From positions 1 to 64,000 of the forward strand of contig JAVJRG010000010.1 of NCBI GenBank assembly GCA_040218535.1: a stretch of 64,000 nt of DNA, written 5' to 3'. A program made the translations under genes and the position numbers. How positions within the stretch are numbered: the stretch's first letter is position 1; every line of letters begins with the position of its first letter. Under the pieces are notes generated by a model that was given only the letters and a program-made list of their open reading frames with translations, searched no databases and was not told the DNA's origin. The stretch comes from Lacipirellulaceae bacterium. GTDB taxonomy: Bacteria; Planctomycetota; Planctomycetia; Pirellulales; Lacipirellulaceae. This document shows positions 9,104-29,083 of the stretch, piece after piece.

Positions 9104-9529
9104 CTAGGCGGTTGCCTTTTCGGTGCAACAAGCACTGCCACAATCGCCACCGCACTCGCAGCCTTTGCAATTGCAAGCTTCACAATCACAGTCGGTGCAA
9201 GTTCCGGTAGAGCAATCGCACTCCTCACACTTGCAGTCCGCACCACAGCAACAGGCCGCGGCGGTTGAGGAGGCTGCGACTTCGGTTGTGCAACAAGGGC
9301 TGCCGCAGCTTTCGCCACACTTGCAACCTTCGCAATTGCAGGCCTCGCAGTTGCAATCAGTGCAAGTGCCCGTTGAGCAATCGCACTCCTCACATTTGCA
9401 GTCTGCACCACAGCAGCAGGCGTCGGCAGCTTTCGCTTCGCCGTCGCCCGCTTGCATCGAATTGAAGGCAAAACCGGCAACCGCCACAACGGCAACGGCG
9501 CCGCCAATGATCAAATTTCTACGTGTCAT
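9104..9529 (-). CDS. Exported or anchored Cys-rich protein with two metallothionein-like repeats
   Basis: 141 residues with 34 cysteines. Residues 1-25 are a basic start plus a hydrophobic segment (signal peptide or membrane anchor). Then come two nearly identical Cys-rich units of about 45 residues (about 37-80 and 91-135), each with 17 cysteines in CC, CxC and CxxC spacing (for example CCCGADCKCEECDC and CSTGTCTDC). No aromatic residues occur in the repeats. The pattern suggests binding of several thiophilic metal ions (Cu, Zn, Cd) outside the cytoplasm, by analogy with metallothioneins; I do not recognise a named family. It has a strong Shine-Dalgarno (AAGGAGA) and its own terminator, so it is probably a single-gene unit. 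Confidence 0.8.
   Translation of the reverse strand: MTRRNLIIGGAVAVVAVAGFAFNSMQAGDGEAKAADACCCGADCKCEECDCSTGTCTDCNCEACNCEGCKCGESCGSPCCTTEVAASSTAAACCCGADCKCEECDCSTGTCTDCDCEACNCKGCECGGDCGSACCTEKATA
9124..9421 (-). repeat. Direct repeat of about 132 bp inside the Cys-rich gene
   Basis: Two copies, 9124-9256 and 9290-9421, code for the two 17-cysteine units. They share long stretches at DNA level, for example GCAATCGCACTCCTCACA in both, with mostly silent differences between them. The similarity points to a fairly recent internal duplication of an ancestral one-unit gene. Confidence 0.85.
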
Positions 9530-11879: not shown

Positions 11880-12908
11880 ATGGCTGACAAGAAAAAAATG
11901 TCGGTGGCGGAGATGCTCGCCGCTGCAAGAAAGAGCGATGGGGAAGGTGGTTCGGAAGCGGCTGCTGAGTCACCTGCAGCACCTGAACCGGCTGCCGAGG
12001 AAACAGCACCTGCGGCTGCGGAAACGTCATCGGCTCCTCCAAAGAAAATTGCCAAGCCAGGCAGCCCCGACCGTCCCAGCGTAGCGGACATGCTGGCGAT
12101 GGCTCGCTCGGGTGGAAAGCCCGCCGAGGCAAAGCCCGCGAAAAAGGCAGCTCCCAAAGCCAAGCCTGCCGCGGCAAAAGCCGACAAGCCAGCGGCGAAG
12201 GCGGCAAAGTCGCCAGCACCTGAACGCGACACGGCAAGTATTCTCGCCGCTGCCAGAAAAGAGAATAAGCCGGGCCCGATGAGCAAATCGGAGGCGGCTA
12301 CCAAAGCAGCGGCCCCAGCACCGACGAAAGCGAAGCCCGCAATTGTCGCTCCGCCGATGCCCGCCAAGCCCGACTACGCCAAACCCAAGGCGAAAAAGGC
12401 CAAGAAGGCTGAAGCCGTTGACGAAGAACGGCGCACAATGCTCTCGGTCGGTTTCGGGGCCTTGGGTGTGATGGCAGTTGCCTGGGGCGGTGCTCTAACG
12501 GCGTTCATGTTCCCGAATGTGCTCCGCGAATTGCCCAGCAAGTTCAAGGTCGGCACACCTGACGGATTTCCACCGGGACAAGTTTCGACCAAGTACAAAG
12601 CCCAGTACGGCGTTTGGGTCGTCAACACCGAGTACCGAGGCAAGCAACAGCTTTTCGCCTTAAAGAGTGTATGTACCCACCTAGGTTGCACTCCCAGTTG
12701 GCTCGAGGCTGAACAGAAATTCAAATGCCCCTGTCACGGTAGTGGTTTTTATAAAGATGGCATCAACTTCGAAGGCCCGGCTCCACGCCCGCTGGAGCGC
12801 TGCTTCATCCATGTGGCTAGCGACGGGCAAGTCGAAATCGACAAGAACATCACCTATCAAGAGGAAATGGGGCAGTGGAACGATCCCACTTGCTACGTTT
12901 CCGTTTGA
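11880..12908 (+). CDS. Rieske iron-sulfur protein with long repetitive N-terminal tail
   Basis: 342 residues. The C-terminal half is a Rieske [2Fe-2S] protein: one transmembrane helix (about 186-205), then the cluster boxes CTHLGC (about 264-269) and CPCHGSGF (about 282-289). It would take electrons from quinol at the cytochrome b partner encoded next. The first 180 residues are Ala/Lys/Pro-rich and cytoplasmic by topology, with three copies of a short motif of the type S-V-A-E-M-L-A-A-A-R (near residues 8, 80 and 120). Ordinary Rieske proteins lack this tail. It is the first gene of the 21-kb respiratory operon, about 90 bp after the CRP-like site. Confidence 0.92.
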   Translation: MADKKKMSVAEMLAAARKSDGEGGSEAAAESPAAPEPAAEETAPAAAETSSAPPKKIAKPGSPDRPSVADMLAMARSGGKPAEAKPAKKAAPKAKPAAAKADKPAAKAAKSPAPERDTASILAAARKENKPGPMSKSEAATKAAAPAPTKAKPAIVAPPMPAKPDYAKPKAKKAKKAEAVDEERRTMLSVGFGALGVMAVAWGGALTAFMFPNVLRELPSKFKVGTPDGFPPGQVSTKYKAQYGVWVVNTEYRGKQQLFALKSVCTHLGCTPSWLEAEQKFKCPCHGSGFYKDGINFEGPAPRPLERCFIHVASDGQVEIDKNITYQEEMGQWNDPTCYVSV

Positions 12909-13007
12909 GAGAAACACCTTAGAAACGCTCCGGGCGTTGTGCTTTCAAAACGAGGCGCTTCCGGCCCACCTGTAACGAATCAAGCAATTTAGAATACTGA
13001 ACGCACC

Positions 13008-13784
13008 ATGCCCGGTTTAGGCGAAACGATTCGCGAATCGCAAATTTGGAAAAGCATCTTCCGGCATCCGATGCCTGTCGATCGACGTAATCGAATCGTC
13101 GTGATGCTGACCAACTTCTTTCTTCATTTGCACCCCGTTTCGATTAAGAAACAGGGAATTGCCCTGAGTTACACCTGGTGTATGGGCGGAGTGACCTTCT
13201 TCCTATTTCTGGTCGAAACCGTCACCGGTGTTCTGTTGATGTTCTACTACCGCCCGACGGTGGAATGGGCGTATGCCGATGTGCAGATGCTTCGCGACGT
13301 TCATTCGTTAGGAATACTGCGCGAAATCCATCGTTGGGGTGCGCACGCAATGGTGATCACCGTGTGGTTGCACATGTACCGTGTGTTCCTAACGGGAAGC
13401 TACAAACCGCCGCGTGAGTTCAACTGGGTGGTCGGCGTGTTGCTACTGCTGCTAACATTGCTTCTCTCATTCACCGGCTATCTCCTCCCGTGGGATCAGT
13501 TGGCCGTTTGGGCGATTACGGTGGGTTCAAATATGGCCCGTGCACATCCGTTCCTTGGCCACGAAGGTCCCGGTCAGCAACTTTTGACCCTCGGCGGCGT
13601 TGACATGATTACGAACGCCTCAGATGCCCGCTTTGCGCTGCTTGGTGCGCGCGAGGTCGGCGAAGAGACGCTTAATCGATTTTATATTCTCCACTGCATC
13701 GCCATTCCGCTCGGCGTGGCGTTACTGTTAGCGATCCATTTCTGGCGAGTCCGCAAGGACGGCGGCATCAGCGGCCCGCTCTAA
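13008..13784 (+). CDS. Cytochrome b, b6-type N-terminal subunit
   Basis: 258 residues, four main transmembrane helices. The haem b ligands are His108/His122 and His229/His244. The spacings of 14 and 15 are those of cytochrome b6. Cys58 in TWCMGG sits where b6 of the b6f complex has the cysteine that binds the extra haem c(n), and RKDGGISGP at the C-terminus is also b6-like. The protein transfers electrons across the membrane from quinol oxidation to the quinone reduction site. The C-terminal part of cytochrome b is the separate gene that follows after 71 bp. Confidence 0.93.
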
Positions 13785-13855
13785 GCGTTCTGGCCGTTGA
13801 TGCAGATGCGTAGCGAAACATTTCTGGCTAATTTACTTCCTTAACAACTTCCCCC

Positions 13856-15229
13856 ATGACCCACGGACTGAGCGACGCGCAATTCCTTGAGAAGGTTGGT
13901 TCCTTCTTAGTGTGGTATTACATCGCGCTGGCCATCATGAATGGCGTAGCTGCGCTGTATCTCTGGCGTACAGGTCAAGAGAAGACTTGGTTCAAGCTAC
14001 CACTACCTGGCAGCGGCAAGTCGATACCCATCACTAACGTGATCGTCTGGGTTATTTCAGCTGTCGGTTTTGTTTTGCTCGCTTCGCTTACGCAAGGCGA
14101 TTGGATCCCCTCCCTCTCAGAAGGATTTAGGGAAGCCATCAACACGGGTACTGGGCCGATTATTTACAGCCTGGGAACGACTGCTGGACTTGTGGTTCTC
14201 TACATTTTCCGCAGGTTCTTTGTCTCGCCACCCGTGGCTTGGACCATCCTCAACGCCATGCTGCTACTGCTGGGCATGTCGATGACCGACCGCGACTTTT
14301 ACGAGATTATTGCGAAGCCCGACAATGTCCCCATTGTGATGCTTGTCTTATTGCTCGCTTTCTTTACCTGGTTGGCGACTTATCGTGCGGTGATCAATGA
14401 CGATCGCATGGAGCGCGGCGAGCCACCACTGGAGAAGCTGGATGATGAGAAGGTCCTTGTCTGGCCCGACCTCGTCTATACCGAATTGATCTGCATGATC
14501 GCTCTGACGGCGTTTCTCATCTTCTGGGCCATCGCCTTGCCAGCCCCGCTGGAAGAACCCGCCAGCAGCGTTAAGACGCCCAACCCGTCGAAAGCACCTT
14601 GGTACTTTTTGGGTCTCCAAGAAATGCTGGTGTACTTCGATCCCTGGATGGCTGGGATCGTCTTGCCTGTGACGATTGTGATCGGCCTTATGGCCATTCC
14701 ATATCTCGATTTCAATAAAGAAGGCAACGGCTACTACACCATTAAACAGCGGAAATTTAGCTACATAGTCTGGCAATTTGGCTTCCTGGAAATGTGGATC
14801 ACTCTGATTGTGCTCGGAACGCTGCTAAGAGGGCCCAACTGGAACTTCTTCGGCCCCTATGAACATTGGGATGCCCACAAAGTTGAAGCACTGGCGAATG
14901 TCAACCTTTCCGAATGGTTCTGGCGAGATTTGCTTGGCAGGAGCCTACCTACCGCGCCAGCTGGGTCGAACGGACTGGTCGCGGCGGGCTACATCATCCT
15001 GCGTGAATGGCTCGGCATCGCTTTAGTGTTGGGCTACTTCATTGCCTTGCCACCGATCATGGCCCTCACGGTATTTCGTCGCTACTACCAGAAGATGGGT
15101 TTCATTCGCTTTATGTTGATGGCCAACCTACTGCTGCTGATGGCTTCTTTGCCAATCAAGATGGTGCTGCGATGGGTTGTCCAATTGAAATATCTGATCG
15201 CGATTCCTGAGTACTTCCTGAATTTTTAG
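13856..15229 (+). CDS. Cytochrome b C-terminal subunit (subunit IV-like), enlarged
   Basis: 457 residues, against about 160 for b6f subunit IV. The C-terminal part (about 200-457) holds the subunit IV signature region: WPDLVYTE near 203, PSKAPWYFLGLQE near 244 in the place of the quinol-site PEWY motif, and several helices. The first 190 residues add about four transmembrane helices of unknown origin. Together with the preceding gene it completes the cytochrome b core. It is followed 59 bp later by the giant cytochrome c. Confidence 0.88.
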   Translation: MTHGLSDAQFLEKVGSFLVWYYIALAIMNGVAALYLWRTGQEKTWFKLPLPGSGKSIPITNVIVWVISAVGFVLLASLTQGDWIPSLSEGFREAINTGTGPIIYSLGTTAGLVVLYIFRRFFVSPPVAWTILNAMLLLLGMSMTDRDFYEIIAKPDNVPIVMLVLLLAFFTWLATYRAVINDDRMERGEPPLEKLDDEKVLVWPDLVYTELICMIALTAFLIFWAIALPAPLEEPASSVKTPNPSKAPWYFLGLQEMLVYFDPWMAGIVLPVTIVIGLMAIPYLDFNKEGNGYYTIKQRKFSYIVWQFGFLEMWITLIVLGTLLRGPNWNFFGPYEHWDAHKVEALANVNLSEWFWRDLLGRSLPTAPAGSNGLVAAGYIILREWLGIALVLGYFIALPPIMALTVFRRYYQKMGFIRFMLMANLLLLMASLPIKMVLRWVVQLKYLIAIPEYFLNF

Positions 15230-15288
15230 CACTTAATTACAGAGCGTCGAACGTTTTCGTCTGACTGATAAGTAAAGATCAACTCTCC

Positions 15289-18200
15289 ATGCCCGCAACC
15301 GAACAAACTTGGTACAACCAGAAAACGATGCACGTCATCTTCGGAGCCAGTGCGCTCGTGATGACGATTGCCACGTTCTGGTTGTTGGCAAAGGACCACA
15401 ACCGGGAGTGGAAAGATTGGCAGCTTGCCGACCGCCGCAAAGATGCGTGGATGCTCCAGGCCCAGCGTGATAAACTGAAAGATCAGTTCGACTCGCGTAT
15501 GACGCAGATCAAGGATGAGATCCTCGAGGCCGAAACGGCCCCGGTCGGCGCGAATCAAGTCGCGAAGTTTCTCGCAGCGGTCGCTTCGGAGGATCTTCGC
15601 TTGGCGGGGGACGCCAACGAGCCAAGCCCTGAGTTGTTCCTGGTGACCGAGAAAGACGAGCAAACCGGCACCGAAGTTAGCCGCTTGGGCTTGGAACAGA
15701 TTGCCGAAGAACACCCCGAGGTCGCTGACCAATTTGAAGAGATCGTCCAGGCACATGCTGAACTCAAGCAGGCGGTCGCTGCCAAAGAGAGCCTCGCCAG
15801 TGAAGCGGCCGAGGCAAGCGAAGCTGCTCAGGAAGTCGCCCAAAATACGCTCCAAGACGCACGTCTTGCGGTCAAGGGTGAACGGGAAGACCTGATCAAG
15901 GCGATGCAAGATCACGCCAGCGAAGCGAAACGTCGCGAGGATGTCTTCGTGGGCGAGAAGAAGGTTGCCAATGGCAAACGCACCGCAGCTGTTAGCGAGC
16001 TCACTTTGCTTGTAGGTCATGGTGGCTCGAAGAAAGACATCGATGCGAAACAGAAGAAGATCGATAAGCTCGACGAGCAGATCTCGACACTGACTGAACA
16101 AATCGCAGCCGCCAACCAGTATCGCACCCGTCTTGAAGGAATGATTGGCGAGGTGAACGCAGAGCGAGATGAAATCTCCAAAGAACTTTCCGCGATGGAA
16201 ACCGAGTTGGCCCGCTTGGATGACTTGGTCTACAAGAATACTTCCAACGTCGGCGAGTGGCTCGTCCGTGCTCCCGTTCTCAACGCACTCTACGATGGTA
16301 ACGTACGGATTCAGCAAAACTGGCTTCCGAACCTAACGGTCAATTACAACTTCTCCCAAGTTGCCCGCTTCGACCGTTGTATTACCTGCCACAAAGCGAT
16401 CTCAAAGACTGCCCCTGGCACCGCTACCGAGCCTGCTTATCCAACCCTCCCCGAGGAACAACGGAATTTCACGGCAGAACTAGCCTCTCCCGACGAACGT
16501 CCCGAATCCGGTGCAACACTCCGTGAAGTTTATGGGTTGGTCCTCTCCGAATCCGGCATCGTTGATGATGGTGCCGTCACTGTTCACTATGTTTTACCTG
16601 AAACGCCCGCTGCACTAGCTGGACTTGAATCAGGTGATGTGATCGAGGCGATTGGGGATGCTCCCGTTTACGAAACCGAAGCGGTTGCTGACCGACTACT
16701 TCGTACCGTTGACGAGTGGGGCGAGCCTATTGCTCTGCAAGTCAGGCGTGGTCTTGACCATCCCTACACTTCGCATCCGCGGCTCGATCTTTATCTAACG
16801 GACTTGAGCCCGCATCCTGAAAAGAAGTTTGGCTGCACGATTTGCCACGATGGGCAGGGCAGTGGTACTTCCTTCAAATGGGCTTCACATACCCCCAACA
16901 CGGCCAAAGAGCAAGATCGTTGGATGCGGGAGTACGATTGGTTTGATAACCATCATTGGATCTTTCCAATGAAACCCGCTCGCTTCGCGGAAAGTAACTG
17001 CTTGAAGTGCCACCACGAAAAAGGTGGCCTAGAGCCCAGCGAGCAGTTCCCCGAGCCACCCGCTCCGAAGCTCGTCGAAGGATGGAACACCGTTGAAGAA
17101 TACGGATGCTTCGGCTGCCACGAAATCAATGGTCACGACGGTGCAGACCGTATCGGTCCCGATGTTCGCCTCGAGCCGAGCTATCACGAAGCCGCCGCGG
17201 CATTGCTTCGCTACGAAGACCTCACCGACGAAGAACGCAGCTTTGCCGAACGTGTCGTAGAAATGCCGAGCGACTCGGGTGCCCGAGAAGCTCTCTTGGC
17301 TTCAGTGATGGCTGACAAGAACATCGCGGATCTTGGCGAAGAAGAGGCTCGCCTGCCGACAAACGCCCACAAGGTTGCTGATCTCCTGAAGACGGCTGAG
17401 ACTCCAGGCATGTATCGCAAGGTAGGACCTAGCCTACGGTATGTGGATTCGAAAGTTGGTTTTGATTGGCTCTATAGCTGGATTGAAAAACCGTCAGACT
17501 TCCGCCCCAGCACAAAAATGCCACAATTCTTCGGCTTGACCGAGCATTTGGAGGGCGAGGGTGACGAGGCGGAGATCGCACTCACGCACGCCTACGAGCC
17601 CATCGAAATCCGTGCCATCACCAAGTATCTGCTGGATAACAGTTCTGATTTCGAGTATCTCGAAACACCCGAGAACGTCACTGAAGAGGCTTCGGCGGAA
17701 CGCGGCCAATGGTTGTTCCAGTCTCGTGGTTGCCTGGCTTGTCACGCTCACGAAGACTATGAAGGCATCAACGCCAACCAGGGTCCCGAACTCTCTGAGA
17801 TCGCCGCGAAGTTCAACAACGAACGCGGTAAAAAGTGGCTCTACACATGGCTGAAAGAGCCGCACAAGTACCATGCTCGTACGAAGATGCCGAATCTTTA
17901 CCTCGATCCAATCGAAGTAACCGATCCGCAAGGCAAGCCAACCGGAGAAGTAACCGACCCGGCTGCCGATATCACGGCTTACTTGCTCAGCGTTGAGAGC
18001 GATTGGAAGCCACAGGGCGTCCCCGCTGAGAATGAGCTTTCGCAGAAGGAACGAGAGGACTTGGCTGCTTTGGCACTTGAGTGGCTCGCCAGCCCACAGA
18101 TTCCTGAAGCGACAGCGAAGAAGTTCCTACAAGAGGGTATTCCCGAGCGGTTCGCGAACAAGGTGAAAGAGGATGAGAAAATTCTGGTCGGAATCACCGA

Positions 18201-20043
18201 CGAGAATCGTGTCGAGAAGCATCTGCAATACGTTGGCCGACGCTCAATCGCCAAGTACGGTTGCTTTGGCTGCCACGACATCCCCGGCTACGAAACTGCC
18301 AAACCGATCGGTGCTGCACTCGCAGAATGGGGACGCAAAGATTCCTCGAAGCTTGCTTTTGAGAACATTGGGGCCTTCCTAGCCACGCATGGAATTGATC
18401 CAGCAGCCAATGATCATCATGGCGACGATCACGGCAAGCACGGCGAGGGCGATCATGCCGATGACAAACACGGTGATGATGAACATGGTGGGCACGACCA
18501 CCTTGATTCGCACGATCCGTCGCTCTCCCCAGACGAAAGCTATTTCGTCCAAGCGCTGAACAGTCACTCGCGCGACGGCTTTATCTGGCAGAAGCTTCGC
18601 TACCCACGTAGCTACGACTACAAAACAACTGCTAACAAAGGATTCAACGAGCGACTGCGGATGCCGAAGTTCCCCTTCACGGACGAACAGCGTGAAGAAG
18701 TAATGACCTTCGTGCTCGGTTTGGTGAATGAACCACCCGCGGAAGAATACATCTACCAGCCCGACGCTCGACAGCAGGCAATCGTCGATGGGCATCATGT
18801 GTTGGATAAGTACAACTGTGCCGGTTGCCACACAATGAAGATGGAATCGTGGGAGTTTGCCTACGATGGCGACTCCTTCGAATCTCCATCGGAAGTGATG
18901 GACTATCCCTTCTTGGCACCTTCGTTCGATCCGAAAGAGATTGCGGAGTCGATGGAAACGGACGATCGTGGACTGCTATTCGCAAAGCTCCACGGCATGC
19001 CCGTCATGGACGAGGAGACGGGACAACCCCAACTCATTGACGAGGATGGCCTCGCGATTACCCGTGAAGAGGTCGCTGAGATTGAGGAGGAAGAGGGCGA
19101 GACAATCCCTACGTTCTACAATTTCACTCTTTGGGAAGACACACTTCTCAATGGCGAGCCTTGGTTGGTTGGCGTGCAAGACGTCATGGTCCCGGCTGCT
19201 GACTCTGAGGAAGCCGCCCCTGCCAATGGCGTTGCCCATGCCGCCTGGGGTGGTGATCTTTCGCGATATCTCTTCCCGCATGTGATCGAAAAGGCCAAGG
19301 AATCAAACCCACAGGTGAAAGGATCTGAGGCCTGGGGCTGGCTACCGCCGCCATTGATGCATGAGGGTGAGAAAGTCCAGCCTGCTTGGTTACACGGATT
19401 CCTCATGAATCCCAAGCCGTTGCGCCCGGCTGCCGTCATGCGGATGCCGAACTTTAATATGTCGAGCGATGATGCCGCAAAACTGGTCAACTACTTTGCC
19501 GCCAGCAGCAAGGTCGATTTCCCCTATGAGTACAAGCCGCAACAGCAGAAGAGTTATCTCGAACAGCTTGCCGACGATCGCGATGATCCGCTTGGCGAAG
19601 CGATGCAAATTGTCGTCAGCGGCAACTACTGCGTGAAGTGCCACGGCGTCGCGGACTTTATGCCCAAAGGCGACGTCACCACGTTCGGACCTAATCTCGC
19701 GGAAGTCTCCGATCGATTGCGGCCAGAGTACTTACGTGATTGGATTGCCAATCCGAAACGGATCCTGCCTTACACCGGGATGCCGGTCAACATTCCTTAC
19801 AACGCGAATGAACCCCACTTGGGTGGCTTAAGCCAGGAATTGTTCAAGGGCACCAGCCTGGAGCAACTCAACGGGCTCTCGACGTTACTGCAAAACTTCG
19901 ACATCTATAGTCAGCAACAGCATTCAGTCACGGATGTCGTTAAGGAGACCGAAGCGAAAGCGAAGCCCAGTGGTGAGGAGAATGCGAAAGCTGGCGATGA
20001 CACAACGGATAAATCAGCGTCTGCGCCCCGCACGCGACGCTAA
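15289..20043 (+). CDS. Giant membrane-anchored octahaem cytochrome c with PDZ-like domain
   Basis: 1584 residues. An N-terminal transmembrane anchor (about 12-34) is followed by a long coiled coil (about 40-320). Eight CXXCH haem sites follow: CITCH 364, CTICH 516, CLKCH 571, CFGCH 607, CLACH 815, CFGCH 992, CAGCH 1177 and CVKCH 1448. Between the first two lies a PDZ-like domain (about 405-494, with PAALAGLESGDVIEAIG). A His/Asp/Gly-rich segment is at about 1043-1075 and the C-terminus is charged. By position it is the cytochrome c subunit that accepts electrons from the Rieske protein and hands them to the oxidase. Its combination of modules is far from cytochrome c1 or f. Candidate distal ligands are the many conserved-looking Met and His residues near each haem. 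Confidence 0.9.
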   Translation: MPATEQTWYNQKTMHVIFGASALVMTIATFWLLAKDHNREWKDWQLADRRKDAWMLQAQRDKLKDQFDSRMTQIKDEILEAETAPVGANQVAKFLAAVASEDLRLAGDANEPSPELFLVTEKDEQTGTEVSRLGLEQIAEEHPEVADQFEEIVQAHAELKQAVAAKESLASEAAEASEAAQEVAQNTLQDARLAVKGEREDLIKAMQDHASEAKRREDVFVGEKKVANGKRTAAVSELTLLVGHGGSKKDIDAKQKKIDKLDEQISTLTEQIAAANQYRTRLEGMIGEVNAERDEISKELSAMETELARLDDLVYKNTSNVGEWLVRAPVLNALYDGNVRIQQNWLPNLTVNYNFSQVARFDRCITCHKAISKTAPGTATEPAYPTLPEEQRNFTAELASPDERPESGATLREVYGLVLSESGIVDDGAVTVHYVLPETPAALAGLESGDVIEAIGDAPVYETEAVADRLLRTVDEWGEPIALQVRRGLDHPYTSHPRLDLYLTDLSPHPEKKFGCTICHDGQGSGTSFKWASHTPNTAKEQDRWMREYDWFDNHHWIFPMKPARFAESNCLKCHHEKGGLEPSEQFPEPPAPKLVEGWNTVEEYGCFGCHEINGHDGADRIGPDVRLEPSYHEAAAALLRYEDLTDEERSFAERVVEMPSDSGAREALLASVMADKNIADLGEEEARLPTNAHKVADLLKTAETPGMYRKVGPSLRYVDSKVGFDWLYSWIEKPSDFRPSTKMPQFFGLTEHLEGEGDEAEIALTHAYEPIEIRAITKYLLDNSSDFEYLETPENVTEEASAERGQWLFQSRGCLACHAHEDYEGINANQGPELSEIAAKFNNERGKKWLYTWLKEPHKYHARTKMPNLYLDPIEVTDPQGKPTGEVTDPAADITAYLLSVESDWKPQGVPAENELSQKEREDLAALALEWLASPQIPEATAKKFLQEGIPERFANKVKEDEKILVGITDENRVEKHLQYVGRRSIAKYGCFGCHDIPGYETAKPIGAALAEWGRKDSSKLAFENIGAFLATHGIDPAANDHHGDDHGKHGEGDHADDKHGDDEHGGHDHLDSHDPSLSPDESYFVQALNSHSRDGFIWQKLRYPRSYDYKTTANKGFNERLRMPKFPFTDEQREEVMTFVLGLVNEPPAEEYIYQPDARQQAIVDGHHVLDKYNCAGCHTMKMESWEFAYDGDSFESPSEVMDYPFLAPSFDPKEIAESMETDDRGLLFAKLHGMPVMDEETGQPQLIDEDGLAITREEVAEIEEEEGETIPTFYNFTLWEDTLLNGEPWLVGVQDVMVPAADSEEAAPANGVAHAAWGGDLSRYLFPHVIEKAKESNPQVKGSEAWGWLPPPLMHEGEKVQPAWLHGFLMNPKPLRPAAVMRMPNFNMSSDDAAKLVNYFAASSKVDFPYEYKPQQQKSYLEQLADDRDDPLGEAMQIVVSGNYCVKCHGVADFMPKGDVTTFGPNLAEVSDRLRPEYLRDWIANPKRILPYTGMPVNIPYNANEPHLGGLSQELFKGTSLEQLNGLSTLLQNFDIYSQQQHSVTDVVKETEAKAKPSGEENAKAGDDTTDKSASAPRTRR

Positions 20044-20115
20044 CGAATGTTCCCAAAGAACTTACTACGATTTAACTCATAGACCTAGCAATCATTAAAC
20101 CGAATAGGCTCAACC

Positions 20116-20907
20116 ATGACTTCTTTCAACCAAAAGCTACTGATGGTCGCTCTGACAACCGTCACTGCATTTTCCCTCGCGACGACAGCTAATGCAGCCG
20201 GTTGGGGCACCTTGAAAGGCAAATTCGTCTACAAAGGCAAAGCCAAGCCGGTCGAACTCAACATCACCAAGGATGTCGAGTTCTGCTCAAAGCATGATTT
20301 GGTTGATGAGTCGGTTGTCGTGGGTGACGATGGCGCACTCAGCAATGTGTTCGTCTTCCTATACACGAAGCGTGGTGCCACAGTGAAACCGCATCCCGAT
20401 TATGAGAAAGCTGACATGAAGCCTGCCGTGCTGGACAACAAGGGCTGTCGCTTCGAGCCTCGCGCGATGACACTGTGGACGAAACAGCCTTTAGAGATCC
20501 GCAATTCTGACGAGGGAATCGGGCACAACACCAACGCCACATTGCGGAAAAACCCAAAGTTCAACGAAACGATCACTAACGATAAGGCTATCACGAAAAA
20601 GTTTGACAAATCGGAGCCAGGACCCGCACCTTTCGCATGTAACGTGCATCCTTGGATGTCAGCCCTCGTGCTAATTCGTGACAACCCCTACATGGCCGTC
20701 TCCAATGCCAAAGGGGAGTTTGAGATCAAGAACCTCCCCGCCGGCGAGCATGAGTTTGTCTTCTTTCACGAAAAACCGGGCTACATGAAGAGCCTGGTTG
20801 TTGGCAAAGAGAAAGCGGATCGAAAAGGCCGAGTTGAGATCGAAATCACCGACGGCAAGACCGTCGACCTTGGCGAGATTGTCGTTACTGAAAAGCTGCT
20901 CAACTAA
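20116..20907 (+). CDS. Secreted cupredoxin-like protein
   Basis: 263 residues with a clear Sec signal peptide (about 1-27, ending ANA-AG). The middle is a plastocyanin-like beta-barrel with a full set of type 1 copper ligands: His137 in GHNTN and Cys175, His178 and Met181 in ACNVHPWM (CX2HX2M). The last third (KGEFEIKNLPAGEHEF onwards) resembles a carboxypeptidase-regulatory-like beta domain. It probably carries electrons between the multihaem cytochrome and the oxidase, or delivers copper. A paralogous lipoprotein follows after 58 bp. Confidence 0.8.
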   Translation: MTSFNQKLLMVALTTVTAFSLATTANAAGWGTLKGKFVYKGKAKPVELNITKDVEFCSKHDLVDESVVVGDDGALSNVFVFLYTKRGATVKPHPDYEKADMKPAVLDNKGCRFEPRAMTLWTKQPLEIRNSDEGIGHNTNATLRKNPKFNETITNDKAITKKFDKSEPGPAPFACNVHPWMSALVLIRDNPYMAVSNAKGEFEIKNLPAGEHEFVFFHEKPGYMKSLVVGKEKADRKGRVEIEITDGKTVDLGEIVVTEKLLN

Positions 20908-20965
20908 TCGGATGCAACCTCCTAGAAGTTAGGTATTACCTCCCCAAGACCCTCTATTACCACTA

Positions 20966-21865
20966 ATGCGTTCTTCTGAAAAACTTCTGCCTTGCCTCCT
21001 CTGCTTCGCGTTTGTCGGTGCGGCCCTTGGTTGCCAACCGTCAACAGATCTCGGTCCCGTTGCAAGCCAAAGCGCAGCCGAGGAGATTCGCGAAGCGCTC
21101 TCTTCGGAAAGCGAAGGAGCAGGTGGAGGGGCGGAAGCCGAAGTAGGAACCGGCTGGGCCACCCTGAAAGGTCGGTTTACTTTCGAGGGAACTCCGCCAG
21201 AAATGCCGGCTTACAATGTCACGAGCGACCAAGGCACCTGTGCGGCTGGTGGGGCACCACCGCAGGAAACTTTGATCGTCGGGAACGATGGCGGCCTAAA
21301 GAACGTGGTTATCTTCCTCCGCAAGACCTCACGAGTTCATGAGTCAGCAGAGGCCCCCGCAGAGCCGCTTGTGTTCGATCAAAAGAAGTGCGTGTTCCTC
21401 ACCCACGTTTTCACCATTCCCGTTGGCCAGCCCATGGAGATCAAGAATAGTGACCCCGTCGGCCACAACACGAAAATCGACGGGAAGAATAGTTTTAACC
21501 GCACCATCCCCGCGGGCGAATCGGTTACGTTTACCCCCAAAAAATCTGAAGCCAAGCCAACGGGAGTGGCATGCAGTATTCATCCGTGGATGAACGCTTA
21601 CATGCTACCTCACGACAACGGCTATGCCGCGGTCACCCTAGAAGACGGCACCTTCGAAATCCAAAATTTGCCAGCGGGTGAAACGCTCGAATTCCAAGTT
21701 TGGCACGAGCGATCAGCCGGTTCGAACCAAGGTCTCGTCGTGACTTCGGACCAAGCGAAGGAGCTCGGCTGGGACAAAAAGGGGCGTTTCGAGGTGAAAC
21801 TCACAGAGAATGAGACAACCGAGCTAGACATTGCCGTACCAGCCTCCGCGTTTACTGGCGGCTGA
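20966..21865 (+). CDS. Cupredoxin-like lipoprotein
   Basis: 299 residues. The lipobox GAALGC puts the lipidated cysteine near residue 23, followed by a Glu/Ala/Gly-rich linker to about residue 65. The fold and ligands repeat those of the preceding gene: His167 in GHNTK and Cys203, His206 and Met209 in ACSIHPWM. The same C-terminal beta domain is present (GTFEIQNLPAGE). It is a membrane-tethered paralogue of the soluble protein upstream, so the pair may act as a fixed and a mobile carrier. Confidence 0.8.
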   Translation: MRSSEKLLPCLLCFAFVGAALGCQPSTDLGPVASQSAAEEIREALSSESEGAGGGAEAEVGTGWATLKGRFTFEGTPPEMPAYNVTSDQGTCAAGGAPPQETLIVGNDGGLKNVVIFLRKTSRVHESAEAPAEPLVFDQKKCVFLTHVFTIPVGQPMEIKNSDPVGHNTKIDGKNSFNRTIPAGESVTFTPKKSEAKPTGVACSIHPWMNAYMLPHDNGYAAVTLEDGTFEIQNLPAGETLEFQVWHERSAGSNQGLVVTSDQAKELGWDKKGRFEVKLTENETTELDIAVPASAFTGG

Positions 21866-21951
21866 TCGACGCGGTTCTTATAGAGAGTTATTCGCCTGGC
21901 AGTCATCGCTTGGCTTCCGATTTAGAGTTCAAGTTTTTCGTTTTCAACACA

Positions 21952-23277
21952 ATGAATTCCTCACTTCTGACAACTCGTACACTGTCCGTCGCACTGCTTT
22001 GCTTATGTGCGTTGGGATGCTCCCAGAGCGAACCGCCTGAGTTCCGGCTCAATATGGTTTCAATGACCTCCAACGAATTGGGGCCTGAGTACCAGCAGGA
22101 AATTGCAAACGTCCTGAGCGGACTCTTTGGAACACCCGACAAGCCTTTCGCTCACCCAGCAACCGGACTGGATCAGCTAAAACTTGATCTATCAGCTGGT
22201 CCTGCTTGGAGCGATGAACGGGGCTACAACCATGGTCTCTATCGGAAGCATTGTGTTCACTGCCACGGGATCGATGGTGATGGCTACGGGCCGACGGCGA
22301 AGATTCTGAATCCCTATCCGCGTGACTACCGCAAGGGCATCTTCAAGTTCAAATCGACTTTTAATGCGGCAAAGCCAACGGATGCCGATCTCGAACGTAT
22401 TCTCCGAAATGGTGTTCCCGGCACATCGATGCCTTCCTTCGAGTTGCTTCCCTCGAGCGAAGTTGAATCTCTTGTCGAGTACGTCAAGTATTTGGCAATC
22501 AAAGGCCAGATGGAAACAAGCCTAGCGGCTTACGTTTTTGACGAACTTGGCATAGATGAAGTCGAAGACGAAGATGGCAATGTCACCGAGCAACGGATTC
22601 CATTCGATCCGGCCAATGATGCAGACCAAGCGGAGGCGGTGCTCGACATTTTGGCGGAAGTCATGGAGGGTTGGGAAACGGCCGAAGAGAACGTCATCAT
22701 CCCCGTCGAGGATCAGATCCCCGCGGATGATCGCAGTCCTGAAGAACTTGCCGCTTCGATCGAAAGAGGCCGAGAGCTTTTCTACGGAACAAAAGCGAAC
22801 TGTATCAAATGCCACGGACCGACGGGTTTGGGTGATGGCCAGCAGACTGACTATCACGTCTGGAACAAAGAAGCGAAGGACTACATTCAAGGAACGATTG
22901 ATCTAGCCGAGTCGCTCGCCAAAGCCGATCCCGAAACCGACGAGGAAGAAGCCGACCTTGACCGGGACTATGAAATCCTAGCCGCTCGTCAAGAAGTCGC
23001 TGAGACACTGCTTCCACCGCGGAACGCGATTCCTCGAAACCTTCGTAAGGGGATTTATCGTGGCGGAAGACGTCGGATTGATGTTTTCCACAAGATACAC
23101 GCTGGAATTGCCGGATCGCCAATGCCTGGCTTAGGTGGCTCAAGCCCCGGTGCGGAAGGGACGATTCCCGAAGCGGACATGTGGGCAATTGTCGATTACG
23201 TCTTGAATCTTCCTTACGAAGCTCCGAGCCAGCCGCAGCGTGCGTTGCCGGTGAACGAACAACCTATTGCTCAATAA
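21952..23277 (+). CDS. Dihaem cytochrome c lipoprotein
   Basis: 441 residues from ATG 21952, chosen because it is followed directly by a signal sequence with a lipobox (LCALGC). Two cytochrome c domains are present: CVHCHGIDGDG at about 101 and CIKCHGPTGLGDG at about 284, each followed by a plausible Met region. A spacer of about 100 residues separates the domains. It probably feeds electrons to subunit II of the oxidase, whose gene follows. Confidence 0.85.
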   Translation: MNSSLLTTRTLSVALLCLCALGCSQSEPPEFRLNMVSMTSNELGPEYQQEIANVLSGLFGTPDKPFAHPATGLDQLKLDLSAGPAWSDERGYNHGLYRKHCVHCHGIDGDGYGPTAKILNPYPRDYRKGIFKFKSTFNAAKPTDADLERILRNGVPGTSMPSFELLPSSEVESLVEYVKYLAIKGQMETSLAAYVFDELGIDEVEDEDGNVTEQRIPFDPANDADQAEAVLDILAEVMEGWETAEENVIIPVEDQIPADDRSPEELAASIERGRELFYGTKANCIKCHGPTGLGDGQQTDYHVWNKEAKDYIQGTIDLAESLAKADPETDEEEADLDRDYEILAARQEVAETLLPPRNAIPRNLRKGIYRGGRRRIDVFHKIHAGIAGSPMPGLGGSSPGAEGTIPEADMWAIVDYVLNLPYEAPSQPQRALPVNEQPIAQ

Positions 23278-23356
23278 TTCTCGGGGACCTGCCGCCGCAG
23301 TCGAAGATGGCCTTTGACTCGGACAGACTTCCCTTTGCTTACTCGAGTTCCATGAT

Positions 23357-24184
23357 ATGCTCGCCAAACTGAAAAACTGGCTTCCAAACTTTTGGGCAGT
23401 GTTGTTTCTGCTGGTTCCAATTTTTGGAGTAGCTACTTTTGCGCTCGCTCCCTATTTGAACGATCTGGCCCCAAAGTACTTCAAACGCCCGATTTGGTTC
23501 CCTGAGGATGTTTCTGAGCATGGTCGTGTGATCGACAACTTATTCATGTTCATCCTCTGGCTCACGGGCATTGTTTTCGTCGTCACTGAGTGTGTGCTGT
23601 TTTACTTCATGTGGAAGTACGACAGCAACTCGAACAAGGAGAAGGTCACCTACAGCCATGGTAGCCACTCTTTGGAAGTCGTATGGACGATCATTCCGGC
23701 TGTGACATTGTTGTTCATTGCGATCTACCAAATGGATGCATGGGCGGACGCCAAGATGCGTGCCCCCGACATTCCACCCATCGTCGAAGTCACGGGGCGT
23801 CAGTTCAACTGGGACTTCCGTTATCCCGGTCCCGACAACCAACTTTATACTTCCGACGATATCGTTCGCACCGATGGCCGCCTTTACCTTCCAATGGGTG
23901 AAGAGGTGCTGCTTCGTATCACCAGTGCTGACGTTTTGCACAGTTTCTTTCTTCCGAACTTACGACTCAAGCAAGACGTCATTCCGGGGATGTCCCAGAA
24001 TATGTGGTTTACGGCCACGAAAAAGGGCGAGTACGACATCGTCTGTGCGGAACTCTGCGGCTGGGGCCATTACAAGATGAAGGCTCGGCTGCACCTAGTT
24101 TCTCGACCGGAATTCGAGAAGCAACTTGAAGAGTTCCGCAAGGAAGAAAACACCATGCGAGTCGCCAGTCGCTCAAACGATTAA
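23357..24184 (+). CDS. coxB: Cytochrome c oxidase subunit II
   Basis: 275 residues. Three hydrophobic segments near the N-terminus (about 13-32, 56-78 and 105-125) are followed by the periplasmic CuA domain. CuA ligands are His195 (VLHSFF) and Cys230, Cys234, His238 and Met241 in CAELCGWGHYKM, with the Glu backbone ligand between the cysteines. No cytochrome c domain is fused at the C-terminus, unlike in caa3 oxidases. The separate cytochromes upstream would be the electron donors. Confidence 0.95.
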   Translation: MLAKLKNWLPNFWAVLFLLVPIFGVATFALAPYLNDLAPKYFKRPIWFPEDVSEHGRVIDNLFMFILWLTGIVFVVTECVLFYFMWKYDSNSNKEKVTYSHGSHSLEVVWTIIPAVTLLFIAIYQMDAWADAKMRAPDIPPIVEVTGRQFNWDFRYPGPDNQLYTSDDIVRTDGRLYLPMGEEVLLRITSADVLHSFFLPNLRLKQDVIPGMSQNMWFTATKKGEYDIVCAELCGWGHYKMKARLHLVSRPEFEKQLEEFRKEENTMRVASRSND

Positions 24185-24218
24185 CCTCACTTCGATTCAT
24201 AGCCTACAAGGCATAGCC

Positions 24219-26006
24219 ATGAGTACCGTCCCTGCTGATTCCGAAGCTCTCGCTGGTCACGCAGACCATGCGCACACGAGCAGCTTCTTGAAGACATATG
24301 TCTTTTCCCTAGATCATAAGATTATTGGGTTGCAGTTCCTGTTCAGCACGCTGATCTGGTTCATCGTTGGCGGACTACTCGCCTTGGGGATTCGTTGGCA
24401 GCTTGCCTATCCATGGCGTCCGATGCCAATTCTGGGTGAAATGGTTGGCCAAGCTGAGGGGGGCCAAATAGCTCCCGAGGTCTACACAATGCTCGTCACC
24501 ATGCACGCCACGGTGATGATCTTCTTCGTGATAATTCCTGTCCTTGCCGGTGCCTTCGGGAACTACTTGATTCCCCTGATGATCGGCGCTGACGATATGG
24601 CCTTTCCCACGCTCAACATGCTGAGCTACTGGTTTATGTGGCCAGCGTTTATTGCGATTGGCGGCAGCTTTTTTGTCGACGGTGGTGCGTCGCAAGGAGG
24701 GTGGACCAACTATGCCCCCCTCTCCATATTCGCCGGGAAGGGGCAGACGCTCTGGTTAATAGGGCTGACGCTCGTTGGTATCTCCTCGATGATGGGATCC
24801 GTCAACTACATGACGACCATCATCCAGATGCGTGCTCCCGGTATGACGATGTTCCGTCTGCCGATGACCATCTGGGCGATGTTCATCACTGCCGTCCTTC
24901 AAGCCTTCGCTCTTCCAGTCCTCACAGCCGCTGGCTTCATGGCGCTGATGGATCGGCATCTAGGCACGGGCTTCTTCCTTGCTGAAGGTGCAACCGCCAA
25001 CAACGCGGTTGCCCAGGCGGGCGGTGGTCAGCCTTTGCTTTGGCAGCACTTGTTCTGGTTCTACAGCCACCCTGCCGTGTACATCATGATTCTCCCCGCG
25101 ATGGGCATGGTTTCAGATATCCTTTGCTGCTTCTCGCGAAAGCCGCTGTTTGGTTACAAGCCGATGGTTTATTCCATCTCGGGAATTGCTGGGCTAGGCT
25201 TTATCGTCTGGGGCCACCATATGTTCGTCTCAGGAATGAACCCAGCCCTAGGGATGACCTTCATGGTTTCGACCATGATGATCGCTTTGCCTAGTGCCAT
25301 TAAAACCTTTAATTGGCTTGGCACGATGTGGGGCGGCAAACTGCAGTTCACAACGCCGATGCTGTTTGCCGTTTCGTTCGTTTCGATGTTCATCATCGGC
25401 GGCCTCTCCGGCATCTTCATGGCCGCTACGCCCGTGGACATCGTCATCCACGATACCTACTTCATCGTCGCTCACTTCCATTACGTTCTGTTTGCCGGAA
25501 CAGCCATGGCCGTCTTGGGGGCCATTTACTTTTGGTTCCCGAAGATGTTCGGTCGGATGATGAACGACTCCTGGGGTAAGGTTCATTTCTTATTGACCTT
25601 CATCCTGATGAACTGCGTGTTCTATCCGATGCACATTCTCGGAATGAATGATTTCCCCCGCCGTCTGGCAGATCCTTACCACTATGGCACTTTCCGCCAT
25701 TTGCTTCCGATCAATCAATTTATGAGCTGGTGTGCTTTCCTTCTTGTTGGAGTGCAAATCATCTTCATCGTGAACTTCTTCTGGAGCATGTTCTTCGGCC
25801 CACGCTGCGGCAGAAATCCATGGCACGCAAATGGACTGGAATGGCAGGCCCCCAGCCCTCCAGGCCACGGCAACTTTGACTTCCAGCCGATGATCTACCG
25901 TGGCCCTTACGAATACAACTCGCCTGAGGTTGAGGAAGATTACTACCCCCAAACCCAGCCTCCGAAGCAGGCTGAACCCGAGGGTGAAGAGACGGCCAAC
26001 GTTTAG
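24219..26006 (+). CDS. coxA: Cytochrome c oxidase subunit I (A2-type haem-copper oxidase)
   Basis: 595 residues from ATG 24219, preferred over an in-frame upstream start inside coxB. Twelve transmembrane helices; the low-spin haem His is in VTMHATVMIFF. CuB and the cross-linked Tyr are in FYSHPAVY (about 281-288), and the other CuB ligands are in WGHHMF. The haem a/a3 ligands are in AHFHYVL. The Tyr-Ser before HP in place of the Glu of A1 enzymes marks the A2 subfamily. It reduces O2 to water and pumps protons. Confidence 0.95.
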   Translation: MSTVPADSEALAGHADHAHTSSFLKTYVFSLDHKIIGLQFLFSTLIWFIVGGLLALGIRWQLAYPWRPMPILGEMVGQAEGGQIAPEVYTMLVTMHATVMIFFVIIPVLAGAFGNYLIPLMIGADDMAFPTLNMLSYWFMWPAFIAIGGSFFVDGGASQGGWTNYAPLSIFAGKGQTLWLIGLTLVGISSMMGSVNYMTTIIQMRAPGMTMFRLPMTIWAMFITAVLQAFALPVLTAAGFMALMDRHLGTGFFLAEGATANNAVAQAGGGQPLLWQHLFWFYSHPAVYIMILPAMGMVSDILCCFSRKPLFGYKPMVYSISGIAGLGFIVWGHHMFVSGMNPALGMTFMVSTMMIALPSAIKTFNWLGTMWGGKLQFTTPMLFAVSFVSMFIIGGLSGIFMAATPVDIVIHDTYFIVAHFHYVLFAGTAMAVLGAIYFWFPKMFGRMMNDSWGKVHFLLTFILMNCVFYPMHILGMNDFPRRLADPYHYGTFRHLLPINQFMSWCAFLLVGVQIIFIVNFFWSMFFGPRCGRNPWHANGLEWQAPSPPGHGNFDFQPMIYRGPYEYNSPEVEEDYYPQTQPPKQAEPEGEETANV

Positions 26007-26017
26007 GCAGCAACAAG

Positions 26018-27043
26018 ATGTCAACAATCACCAATAATGTCGACGACTCGCGTTGGCCCCATCGCTGGGCATGGCTGCTTGCTGCGACGACCTTTCCGCT
26101 GATTTGGTGGGGTGGCTACACGACAACGACCGATGCCGGGATGGCTTTCCGAGACTGGATCACCTCGGACGGCCACTTCATGCTGATCTACCCGTGGTTT
26201 GAATCGACGGGAGCAAAGTTCATCGAACATGGCCACCGCCTGCTGGCCGTACTTGTCGGTATTCTTACGATCTGCTTGGCAATCGTTACCCACCGCTGCG
26301 AATCTAGGAAATGGGTTCGTCGCTATTCCCTCATTCTACTGGCTGGCGTTATCGCTCAGGGAATGCTGGGGGGTGCTCGGATCCTCATGGACGAGCGATT
26401 AGTCGCTATGCTCCACGGATGTACTGGGCCGCTGTTTTTCGCGATGACTACCGCGATGGTTGTCTTTACTTCGCGTTGGTGGACTGAACATAGTATTGAA
26501 CATGGTGGAAAATATGGTGGAGAACGGCTAAGCGACAAGTCGCTAGCACGGCTCGCAATTATTTGCTGTGGTCTGGCGTATGGTCAGCTCGTCGTCGGAG
26601 CAGTCGTCCGGCACACTCGGTACCTGACCTCTGCGTCTGCTGCCTCGATCTTCCAACTAGCTGTCTACTTTCACGTCATCCTAGCCTTCGTCGTACTGGG
26701 GCATGTGTTGTTGCTGGCAATTAAGAGCGTTCGCAAGCACGCTCATCGAGGTCATGCGATCTTTCTAAGCATTCTTGTCTTGGCTCAGATCAGTCTTGGG
26801 CTGGCAACTTGGTTTGTTCGATTTGGCGTACCCGCTTGGCTTGGCAACCTCATCGGCGAGGTCGCTTACGTGAACGTCAACGCTAGCAACCAGATGGCAA
26901 TGATCATCACGGGCCACGTCGCCGTCGGATCCTTGATTGTCGCCGTCAGTCTGGCGACAGCTTTGCGTGCAATTCGCACGTCGAGCTATCGCCTACCACA
27001 GCTAGGCACGAATCCTGGCAAACAACTGGAGGCAGCCCTGTGA
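26018..27043 (+). CDS. ctaA: Haem A synthase (CtaA/Cox15 family)
   Basis: 341 residues, about eight transmembrane helices. The motifs FIEHGHRLLA near residue 68, MLHGCTGPLFF and VRHTRY supply the conserved His residues of the haem-binding helices. It hydroxylates haem O to haem A for the oxidase encoded next to it. Its stop overlaps the ctaB start region (GTGA), so the two are coupled. Confidence 0.9.
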   Translation: MSTITNNVDDSRWPHRWAWLLAATTFPLIWWGGYTTTTDAGMAFRDWITSDGHFMLIYPWFESTGAKFIEHGHRLLAVLVGILTICLAIVTHRCESRKWVRRYSLILLAGVIAQGMLGGARILMDERLVAMLHGCTGPLFFAMTTAMVVFTSRWWTEHSIEHGGKYGGERLSDKSLARLAIICCGLAYGQLVVGAVVRHTRYLTSASAASIFQLAVYFHVILAFVVLGHVLLLAIKSVRKHAHRGHAIFLSILVLAQISLGLATWFVRFGVPAWLGNLIGEVAYVNVNASNQMAMIITGHVAVGSLIVAVSLATALRAIRTSSYRLPQLGTNPGKQLEAAL

Positions 27044-27960
27044 GCATGACCTCCAAAGACACGCAGTTGACCGCAACCGATTCGACGGTCGGCCTCGTCT
27101 TCTCGAGGCTGAATGATTATTTCCAACTGACGAAGCCGCGAATCGTCTTGCTTGAGCTAATCGTCGCAGCGGCGACCGCCTGCATAGCGGCTCCTTACGC
27201 GATTGATGCCGTGGTTCTCTTCCATGCACTAGCAGCCACGGCACTGGTTGCAGGAAGTGCGAGTACTGGAAACCAGATCTTGGAACGTGAAGTCGACGCG
27301 AAGATGCCACGAACCGCAGACCGACCTCTCGTGACGGGACGTGTCGCCGTGTGGGAAGCGACGTTGCTTGGCTTGGTCACGCTCGTCATTGGCGTGGCAT
27401 GGCTTTGCCTGAAAGTCAACCTACTGACGGCTGGACTCGGTCTTGCTAGTTGGCTACTTTACGTCGTGGTCTACACGCCGCTGAAAACGCGTACCCCACT
27501 TAACACGGCAGTTGGAGCCGTCGCTGGAGCGTTGCCCTTACTCATGGGATGGACTGCCACGGGGCAGCCGCTTTCCTTGACAGCGTTTGCCTTGGCTGGT
27601 GTCCTCTTCCTGTGGCAGTTCCCGCACTTTATGGCGATTGCTTGGATCTACCGTGATGATTACCAGAGAGCCGGCCACCAGATGATGAGCGTGGTGGATC
27701 CGACAGGCTGGCGATGCGGCTGGCAAGCGATCATAGGTGCCTTGTTTCTAATTCCTGTGAGCCTCATTCCGGCTATCCTCCCAGAGGGTCGAAGCCCGAT
27801 GGCCTACTCATTGTGGGCAATCGCTCTCGGAAGCGTCATTCTCGCTCTTGCTGTTCGATTCGCGGTTGTGCGTGATAACCGAACTGCGAGACAATTGCTG
27901 AAATCAACACTAATCTACTTGCCCGCTTGGCTGGGCGTCCTACTGATGGTTAGCCTCTAA
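27040..27960 (+). CDS. ctaB: Protohaem IX farnesyltransferase (haem O synthase)
   Basis: 306 residues, about eight or nine transmembrane helices. The UbiA-family Asp-rich motif is NQILEREVDAKMPRT followed by RPLVTGR (about 70-90), and a second region is YRDDYQRAGHQMM. It adds a farnesyl group to haem B to make haem O, the substrate of CtaA. The start is GTG 27040 overlapping the ctaA stop; ATG 27046 is the alternative. Confidence 0.94.
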   Translation: MSMTSKDTQLTATDSTVGLVFSRLNDYFQLTKPRIVLLELIVAAATACIAAPYAIDAVVLFHALAATALVAGSASTGNQILEREVDAKMPRTADRPLVTGRVAVWEATLLGLVTLVIGVAWLCLKVNLLTAGLGLASWLLYVVVYTPLKTRTPLNTAVGAVAGALPLLMGWTATGQPLSLTAFALAGVLFLWQFPHFMAIAWIYRDDYQRAGHQMMSVVDPTGWRCGWQAIIGALFLIPVSLIPAILPEGRSPMAYSLWAIALGSVILALAVRFAVVRDNRTARQLLKSTLIYLPAWLGVLLMVSL

Positions 27961-27981
27961 GCTGACAGCAAAGTTAAAACT

Positions 27982-29028
27982 ATGAGTGATCACCACCACG
28001 AAGGCTTCGACTACCAGCCTGCCTTGCCCATCCCCAATGGCAAGCTTTGTCTGTGGCTCTTCTTGTCCACCGAAATTATGTTCTTCGCTGGCTTAATCGG
28101 TGCCTACATCGTCTTGCGATTCGGTGCGATCTCTTGGCCCAGCACTCACGACGTGCACCTGGTCGAGTACTTCGGTGCCATCAACACGGCGGTACTGATC
28201 GCCTCCAGCATCACGGTCGTTCTCTCATTGGAAGCCTCCAAGAAAGACAACGCGGCTGGCGCACGGATGTGGATGATCATCACGCTCGCACTCGGCACCG
28301 TCTTCCTTGGCGTGAAAGCCTACGAGTACAAAGCGAAGATCGATCACTTGATTTATCCGGCAACGCCACGCAGCTCAATCTACGAAAAACCCGATGTCAA
28401 CTACTCAGCGGCAGTTCGGGCACGGCTGGCAGAAATCACCGCGGAACTACCCAAGCCGTCCGACCGAACAGAGGCAGACAACGAGAAGGTCGAGATCATC
28501 GCTGATGTGCAAATGAAGCTTGATGAAGCGGAGCTACTGCTTCGTACCAAGCCCGATTCGCCTGAGGGCCGGATCGCCATGCACAAAGTGGCTGAGATGA
28601 TCTACCCACGAGCCAGCGTTCAGGGCCAGACCTTTGCGATTCCTGAAGCTCATGGGGGCACGAAAGATCACGATCACTCGACAGAAGAACCTGCCAAGGC
28701 TGCCAGCTTGACTCAACCCGGGTTCCGGCTCGTCAGTGCAGAAGTCGAGGGCGATCATTCAGCGGGGCACGCTATCGGGCTGAACGACCAGCATCCCTGG
28801 TTAAAACTTCCCATCATGATCCCCGGCGGCAACCTCTGGGCGAGCACCTACTTCTTGGTGACAGGATTTCACGCGATCCACGTCTTAGTTGGCTTAATCG
28901 CGTTTGTCATTTTGTTAACAATGAATCTCGGGAAAGCAAATTCGGGCGTTATCGAGAACGTTGGTCTTTATTGGCACTTTGTTGACTTGGTTTGGATCTT
29001 CCTGTTCCCGATTCTCTATCTGTTCTAG
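27982..29028 (+). CDS. coxC: Cytochrome c oxidase subunit III with a large internal insertion
   Basis: 348 residues. The N-terminal helices ([15 protein letters not shown]) and the C-terminal helices ([30 protein letters not shown]) are typical of CoxC. Between GVKAYEYK (about 115) and the fourth helix lies an insertion of roughly 140-150 hydrophilic residues with a helical, charged part and a His-rich end. Normal subunits have a short loop here. Subunit III stabilises the oxidase core. Confidence 0.9.
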
Positions 29029-29083
29029 GATTTTGAAATTTTAGGCGGCACTGTAGTAATCAACAACGCAAGCGGTTGGAAAA

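Follow-up and report, generated by a model that had tools for sequence, protein, structure and literature searches.

A PDZ-containing octahaem cytochrome c in planctomycetes, a probable subunit of a b6f-like Rieske/cytochrome b complex

Gene neighbourhood of the octahaem cytochrome

The window analysed here is a stretch of 64,000 nucleotides from a Lacipirellulaceae bacterium (GenBank assembly GCA_040218535.1, contig JAVJRG010000010.1, positions 1 to 64,000), and the genes of interest lie on its forward strand:

11880..12908, +, Rieske [2Fe-2S] subunit with an Ala/Lys/Pro-rich N-terminal extension of ~180 residues (Pfam PF00355)
13008..13784, +, cytochrome b6-like subunit with Cys58 at the presumed haem c_n position (Pfam PF00033; alignment to Kuenenia)
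13856..15229, +, extended subunit-IV-like C-terminal part of cytochrome b (bC), Qo motif region APWY (Pfam PF00032; NCBIfam ExtQ/subunit IV)
15289..20043, +, octahaem c-type cytochrome subunit, 1584 aa (ORF translation, CXXCH motifs, homologues)
20116..20907, +, cupredoxin-like (blue-copper-like) protein 1, with His137, Cys175, His178 and Met181
20966..21865, +, cupredoxin-like protein 2, with His167, Cys203, His206 and Met209
21910..23277, +, dihaem c-type cytochrome, whose true start is possibly downstream
23357..26006, +, aa3-type oxidase subunits II and I, coxB and coxA (conserved order; COX1 family match)

The order Rieske, b6, bC, octahaem cytochrome, cupredoxin(s) and dihaem cytochrome, followed by cox genes where the locus reaches them, was found at 20 Pirellulales loci, and the order of the first four genes recurs in most loci of groups outside the Pirellulales. 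The position of Cys58 in the b6-like subunit is one that, by analogy with cytochrome b6f, we take to be the haem c_n site. The subunit-IV-like protein (13856-15229) has 457 residues, compared with 277 in Kuenenia, and includes extra membrane segments over a long N-terminal stretch. In the Rieske protein, the N-terminal extension (11880-12400) repeats a short motif (SVAEMLAAAR, SVADMLAMAR) that recurs in many relatives, and this suggests a repeated binding peptide.

The two genes at 20116-21865 received only a weak Pfam label, carboxypeptidase-regulatory-like. Both products have a conserved His followed by C-x2-H-P-W-M, an amicyanin-like arrangement, and the profile of these proteins matches amicyanins and a copper nitrite reductase domain with E values of 0.00015-0.006; we regard them as candidate electron carriers. 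On the reverse strand, at 9104-9529, lies a gene for a small, secreted-looking and very Cys-rich protein with two near-identical repeats (CCCGADCKCEECDCSTGTCTDC...), possibly metal-binding.

Layout of the octahaem protein

The following features were assigned within the octahaem protein:

15334..15390, +, N-terminal membrane anchor, residues 16-34 (hydropathy; helix 11-37 in the AlphaFold2 model)
15406..16239, +, long helical region, residues 40-317, of several helices and a beta hairpin (AlphaFold2 pLDDT mostly 90-98)
16378..16392, +, haem 1 CITCH, residues 364-368 (motif, kept in 87 of 87 relatives)
16462..16758, +, PDZ domain, residues ~392-490, X-phi-G-phi loop VYGL (Pfam PDZ_6/PDZ_2; model; fold match)
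16774..16890, +, stretch with invariant His 496, 509 and 534, candidate distal ligands of haems 1-3 (invariant in 87 sequences)
16834..16848, +, haem 2 CTICH (motif; conserved in alignment)
16999..17013, +, haem 3 CLKCH (motif; conserved in alignment)
17107..17121, +, haem 4 CFGCH, candidate distal ligand Met744 (motif; conservation)
17731..17745, +, haem 5 CLACH, candidate distal ligand Met867, class I cytochrome c domain (motif, Pfam, conservation, fold match)
18262..18276, +, haem 6 CFGCH, candidate distal ligand Met1125 (motif; conservation)
18409..18516, +, His/Asp/Gly-rich segment, residues 1041-1076 (variable; predicted disordered)
18817..18831, +, haem 7 CAGCH, candidate distal ligand Met1386 (motif; conservation)
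19630..19644, +, haem 8 CVKCH, candidate distal ligand Met1498 (motif, Pfam, conservation)

The eight CXXCH motifs start at residues 364, 516, 571, 607, 815, 992, 1177 and 1448, one of them before residue ~490 and seven after it, and they account for all 16 Cys of the protein; shuffled versions of the sequence contained 0.004 such motifs on average. Hydropathy indicated a single transmembrane segment at residues ~16-34. With the PDZ domain at ~390-490, these results confirm the order that a sequence-only reading of this DNA had put forward, namely a membrane anchor, one haem, a PDZ domain and seven further haems. The cytochrome f family found no match in the protein in Pfam or NCBIfam searches.

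Homologues and their distribution

The nearest named match to the octahaem protein, at 75% identity, comes from a congeneric genome that we took to be that of Adhaeretor mobilis (Lacipirellulaceae, Pirellulales). By search threshold, 31 of 40 relatives have homologues, a few of these matching only through the PDZ domain or a single cytochrome; in the phylum sample the count was 87 of 294 genomes. The full-length copies examined have eight CXXCH motifs, the exceptions being two ORFs with seven motifs and ORFs cut by contig ends.

Among 199 genomes of the class, the octahaem gene was found in 96 and its cytochrome b6 in 97, these being the same genomes but for one, 64% complete, that has b6 without the octahaem gene; in a few genomes of family f17 the two genes lie on different contigs. 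This strict genomic co-occurrence, together with the synteny, supports the earlier proposal that the protein would belong to the Rieske/cytochrome b complex.

One match within the phylum (locus L147) lies in a genome with matches to hydrazine synthase alpha. His62, Arg266 and Lys267 are present in the cytochrome b of this locus and Arg550 in the adjoining 566-residue NAD(P) oxidoreductase-like protein, and these are residues that Hauser and colleagues numbered in Kustd1481 and Kustd1483 (PMC12954380). Given this agreement with the published Kuenenia numbering, we took L147 to be the Kustd1480-1485 locus and its 948-residue protein to be Kustd1485. The octahaem protein of the window can be aligned with Kustd1485 haem by haem, with invariant ligand residues in common, and judged by that alignment it is a large variant of a known octahaem subunit, homologous to Kustd1485. 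The layout, which the sequence-only reading set apart from those of cytochrome c1, cytochrome f and alternative complex III, does have precedents: the same subunit is known from Kuenenia, and the passages of PMC3578206 that concern such operons report that Nitrospina, Kuenenia and Methylomirabilis encode octahaem proteins resembling one another next to a split cytochrome b.

In all eight of the tested same-family relatives without the octahaem complex, an NrfD gene lies ~7 kb from a cox1 gene, and in the one that was examined closely (locus L213) the genes are arranged as in alternative complex III, with cox genes after them. In the window's genome NrfD was absent at the threshold used. This pattern is as expected if the octahaem complex and alternative complex III can each take the other's place in connecting quinol with the oxidase.

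We rejected the notion that the octahaem complex is the organism's sole complex III, given that two further cytochrome b loci (contigs C5 and C12), with Rieske genes nearby, bring the genome's number to three. The cluster on contig C5 (L214, 8151-19286) combines Rieske/cytochrome b genes with those for an HAO-type octahaem protein (L214:10241-11914, with a match to PF13447), a molybdopterin oxidoreductase, a NapB-like cytochrome, a dihaem cytochrome and a COX1/FixO oxidase.

Haem ligands and structure models

Haem ligands were sought in an alignment of 87 sequences built haem by haem. Besides the haem motifs themselves, the only His and Met residues with a conservation of 99% or more were His496, His509, His534, Met744, Met867, Met1125, Met1386 and Met1498, with Met561 next at 94%. 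The three His and five Met together are as many as the haems, and most simply the His would serve haems 1-3 and the Met haems 4-8. Conservation, from which the pairing is drawn, thus suggests bis-His ligation for haems 1-3 and His/Met ligation for haems 4-8 in class-I-type domains, an assignment that constitutes a checkable prediction.

An AlphaFold2 model of residues 1-640 was built with 49 relatives, residues ~490-640 being poorly modelled. In this model the helical region consists of helices at 40-82, 88-105, 136-174, 178-243, 248-289 and 291-317, with strands at 118-133. The ~280-residue coiled coil of the sequence-only reading is therefore upheld as a helical region but not as a single uninterrupted coiled coil, the helices being broken and accompanied by a small beta hairpin. 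The further suggestion that it sets a fixed distance between membrane and haems found no support: the helices are separate in the model, the region is among the least conserved parts of the protein (30% mean identity across relatives), and the Kustd1485 model has, besides a transmembrane helix, long helices that wrap halfway round the complex (PMC12954380).

The model of residues 560-1584 was confident overall (pLDDT 84.9, pTM 0.86). For one of its domains the best structural match was SoxX (Z 12.2, rmsd 2.0 Å, 96 residues), ahead of other small cytochromes, and the single-domain matches of the octahaem protein comprise SoxX, class I cytochromes and cbb3 subunit II. The complete five-domain assembly found no counterpart among solved structures, although a fold may have been missed. 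The His/Asp/Gly-rich stretch noted originally is present at residues 1041-1076, but it is variable, predicted to be disordered (pLDDT ~35) and not conserved among relatives, and on these grounds we rejected it as a metal site. The loop it occupies coincides with the site at which other lineages carry a PDZ domain between haems 6 and 7.

Evidence for the PDZ domain and its history

The PDZ fold proposed between haems 1 and 2 passed both a domain search and structure prediction. Pfam PDZ_6 scored above its gathering cut-off at residues 432-472 and PDZ_2 slightly below at 427-488, AlphaFold2 gave pLDDT ~90-97 across most of ~391-490, and comparison of that stretch with solved PDZ domains by VIA-align gave a best Z of 11.3 (rmsd 2.1 Å, 85 residues).

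When homologues were searched for the same domain order, Pfam placed a PDZ domain in the gap between haems 1 and 2 in 17 of 18 Pirellulales members, with a single case of apparent loss (locus L204); elsewhere the domain was absent or differently placed. Most other planctomycete groups have 39-70 residues between haems 1 and 2; in a few the spacer is longer but gave no PDZ match. In family f18 the domain lies between haems 5 and 6 in part of the members and between haems 6 and 7 in one clade, the X-phi-G-phi loop being retained at all three insertion sites.

We traced these types on a tree of cytochrome b6, a protein separate from the octahaem cytochrome. The haem 1-2 type formed one group (89/94), as did the haem 6-7 type (98/94), and the haem 5-6 type cannot be explained by fewer than three gains or losses. 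The octahaem core gave a tree concordant with that of b6, in which family f17 groups with the Pirellulales. From these comparisons, the PDZ domain is missing from the basic form of the protein and is a lineage-specific insertion at three sites (haems 1-2, 5-6 and 6-7). Such recurrent insertion into a respiratory electron-transfer subunit was unexpected, and it raises the question of what the PDZ domains hold.

Possible functions of the PDZ domain

The PDZ domain is most likely a docking module for the C-terminal tail of a partner, perhaps tethering a carrier or the oxidase. We compared the C-termini of neighbouring proteins between lineages with and without the domain, and none of these tails tracks its presence or was found to be a ligand. 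The tails of the Rieske protein ([FY][IV]xV) and subunit IV (NF/NI) are conserved and hydrophobic, but both are found in PDZ-less lineages too, Kuenenia included in the case of subunit IV, and the Rieske tail was thus judged not specific; the C-termini of coxB, the dihaem cytochrome and the cupredoxins are variable among the matches listed. The PDZ domain may bind a peptide tail, as suggested earlier, but none of the C-terminal tails tested matches it in distribution.

That no partner tail tracks the domain would also fit a structural brace, in which the groove is filled by a strand of the protein itself or of its dimer mate and only the region from haem 1 to haems 2-4 is stabilised. The PDZ domain is moreover less conserved among relatives (48% identity) than the flanking haem parts, and many lineages do without it. 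A purely local brace is nonetheless an odd explanation for domains that arose at three different positions in the chain and that maintain the carboxylate-binding loop pattern at each of them, and while we take it seriously, we think it somewhat doubtful.

Returning to docking, the reading could be carried further, to a plug-in dock, inserted repeatedly, that, by gripping the C-terminal tail of a carrier or of the oxidase, keeps complexes III and IV joined in a respiratory supercomplex. We consider this extension unlikely, and we know of no respiratory complex in which a PDZ domain has such a role.

Probable role in electron transfer

The octahaem protein is probably the c-type cytochrome subunit of a b6f-like Rieske/cytochrome b complex III, standing in place of cytochrome f or c1 and relaying electrons towards the aa3 oxidase; we infer its physical membership of the complex, the order of electron flow and the identity of the acceptor alike. 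Quinol would be oxidised at the Qo site, and the Rieske protein would hand one electron to haems 1-3 near the membrane, which are predicted to be bis-His. The electron would then traverse the five putative His/Met class-I-type cytochrome domains of haems 4-8 and exit to the neighbouring cupredoxins and/or the dihaem cytochrome, onward to the aa3 oxidase. The description of the protein as the redox output arm of a bc-like complex, encoded here beside an aa3 oxidase, is probably right.

Since it has been suggested that Kuenenia complexes of this type link the oxidation of quinol with other reactions (PMC12954380), and since eight haems exceed the need of a simple relay, one might instead see the protein mainly as a terminal reductase or peroxidase, or as an extracellular conduit, that is merely co-transcribed with the Rieske/b genes. 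This is highly improbable in our view: each haem has one conserved candidate for a second ligand, so that none is evidently open for catalysis, the gene co-occurs strictly with cytochrome b, the aa3 oxidase adjoins, and a Pfam search found the HAO-type domain Multi-haem_cyto (PF13447) absent from the protein. Electron bifurcation making NAD(P)H, as proposed for Kuenenia, with the octahaem arm taking only the downhill electron, has the least to recommend it, for while cytochrome b retains the residues that would surround the proposed extra haem b, no NAD(P) oxidoreductase ORF is present among the window genes from 11880 to 29533, whereas L147 has one, located between the b6 and subunit IV genes.

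Comparison with known complexes

The Kustd1480-1485 system of Kuenenia stuttgartiensis likewise comprises a Rieske protein, a b6-like cytochrome b, a subunit-IV-like protein and an octahaem cytochrome with one transmembrane helix and long helices, and Kustd1485 has the same eight-haem pattern of three His and five Met. It differs in that Kustd1485 has 948 residues and no PDZ domain, compared with 1584 residues and a PDZ domain here, and in that the Kuenenia complex includes an NAD(P) oxidoreductase subunit. The 18 kb examined of the Kuenenia locus revealed no recognisable cox genes, whereas cupredoxin-like and oxidase genes follow the octahaem gene in the window.

For Kuenenia, a novel haem b has been proposed at the interface of the cytochrome b dimer, held by a His and the RxRKDGG residues (PMC12954380). 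The equivalent residues of the window's cytochrome b (13008-13784), His40 (Kuenenia His62) and those of RxRKDGG, are conserved even though the NAD(P) oxidoreductase gene is absent, and a conserved extra-haem site without an NAD(P)H module bears on the proposal made for the anammox complexes.

The bc-like operons of Nitrospina gracilis and Methylomirabilis oxyfera, compared by description only, similarly place an octahaem cytochrome beside Rieske and split cytochrome b genes, and the passages of PMC3578206 that describe these octahaem proteins do not mention a PDZ domain.

Cytochrome b6f shares with the window's cluster a split cytochrome b, a Rieske protein and a Cys at the haem c_n position, but here the octahaem cytochrome would replace cytochrome f, and subunit IV is extended. 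Alternative complex III, by comparison, is also a multihaem quinol-oxidising complex encoded beside cox genes, and it appears to substitute for the octahaem complex in relatives, but its core subunits are different, NrfD among them. The octahaem cytochrome described from anammox bacteria is thus a widespread planctomycete subunit, one that is found with an aa3 oxidase in the Pirellulales and that gives way to alternative complex III in some close relatives.
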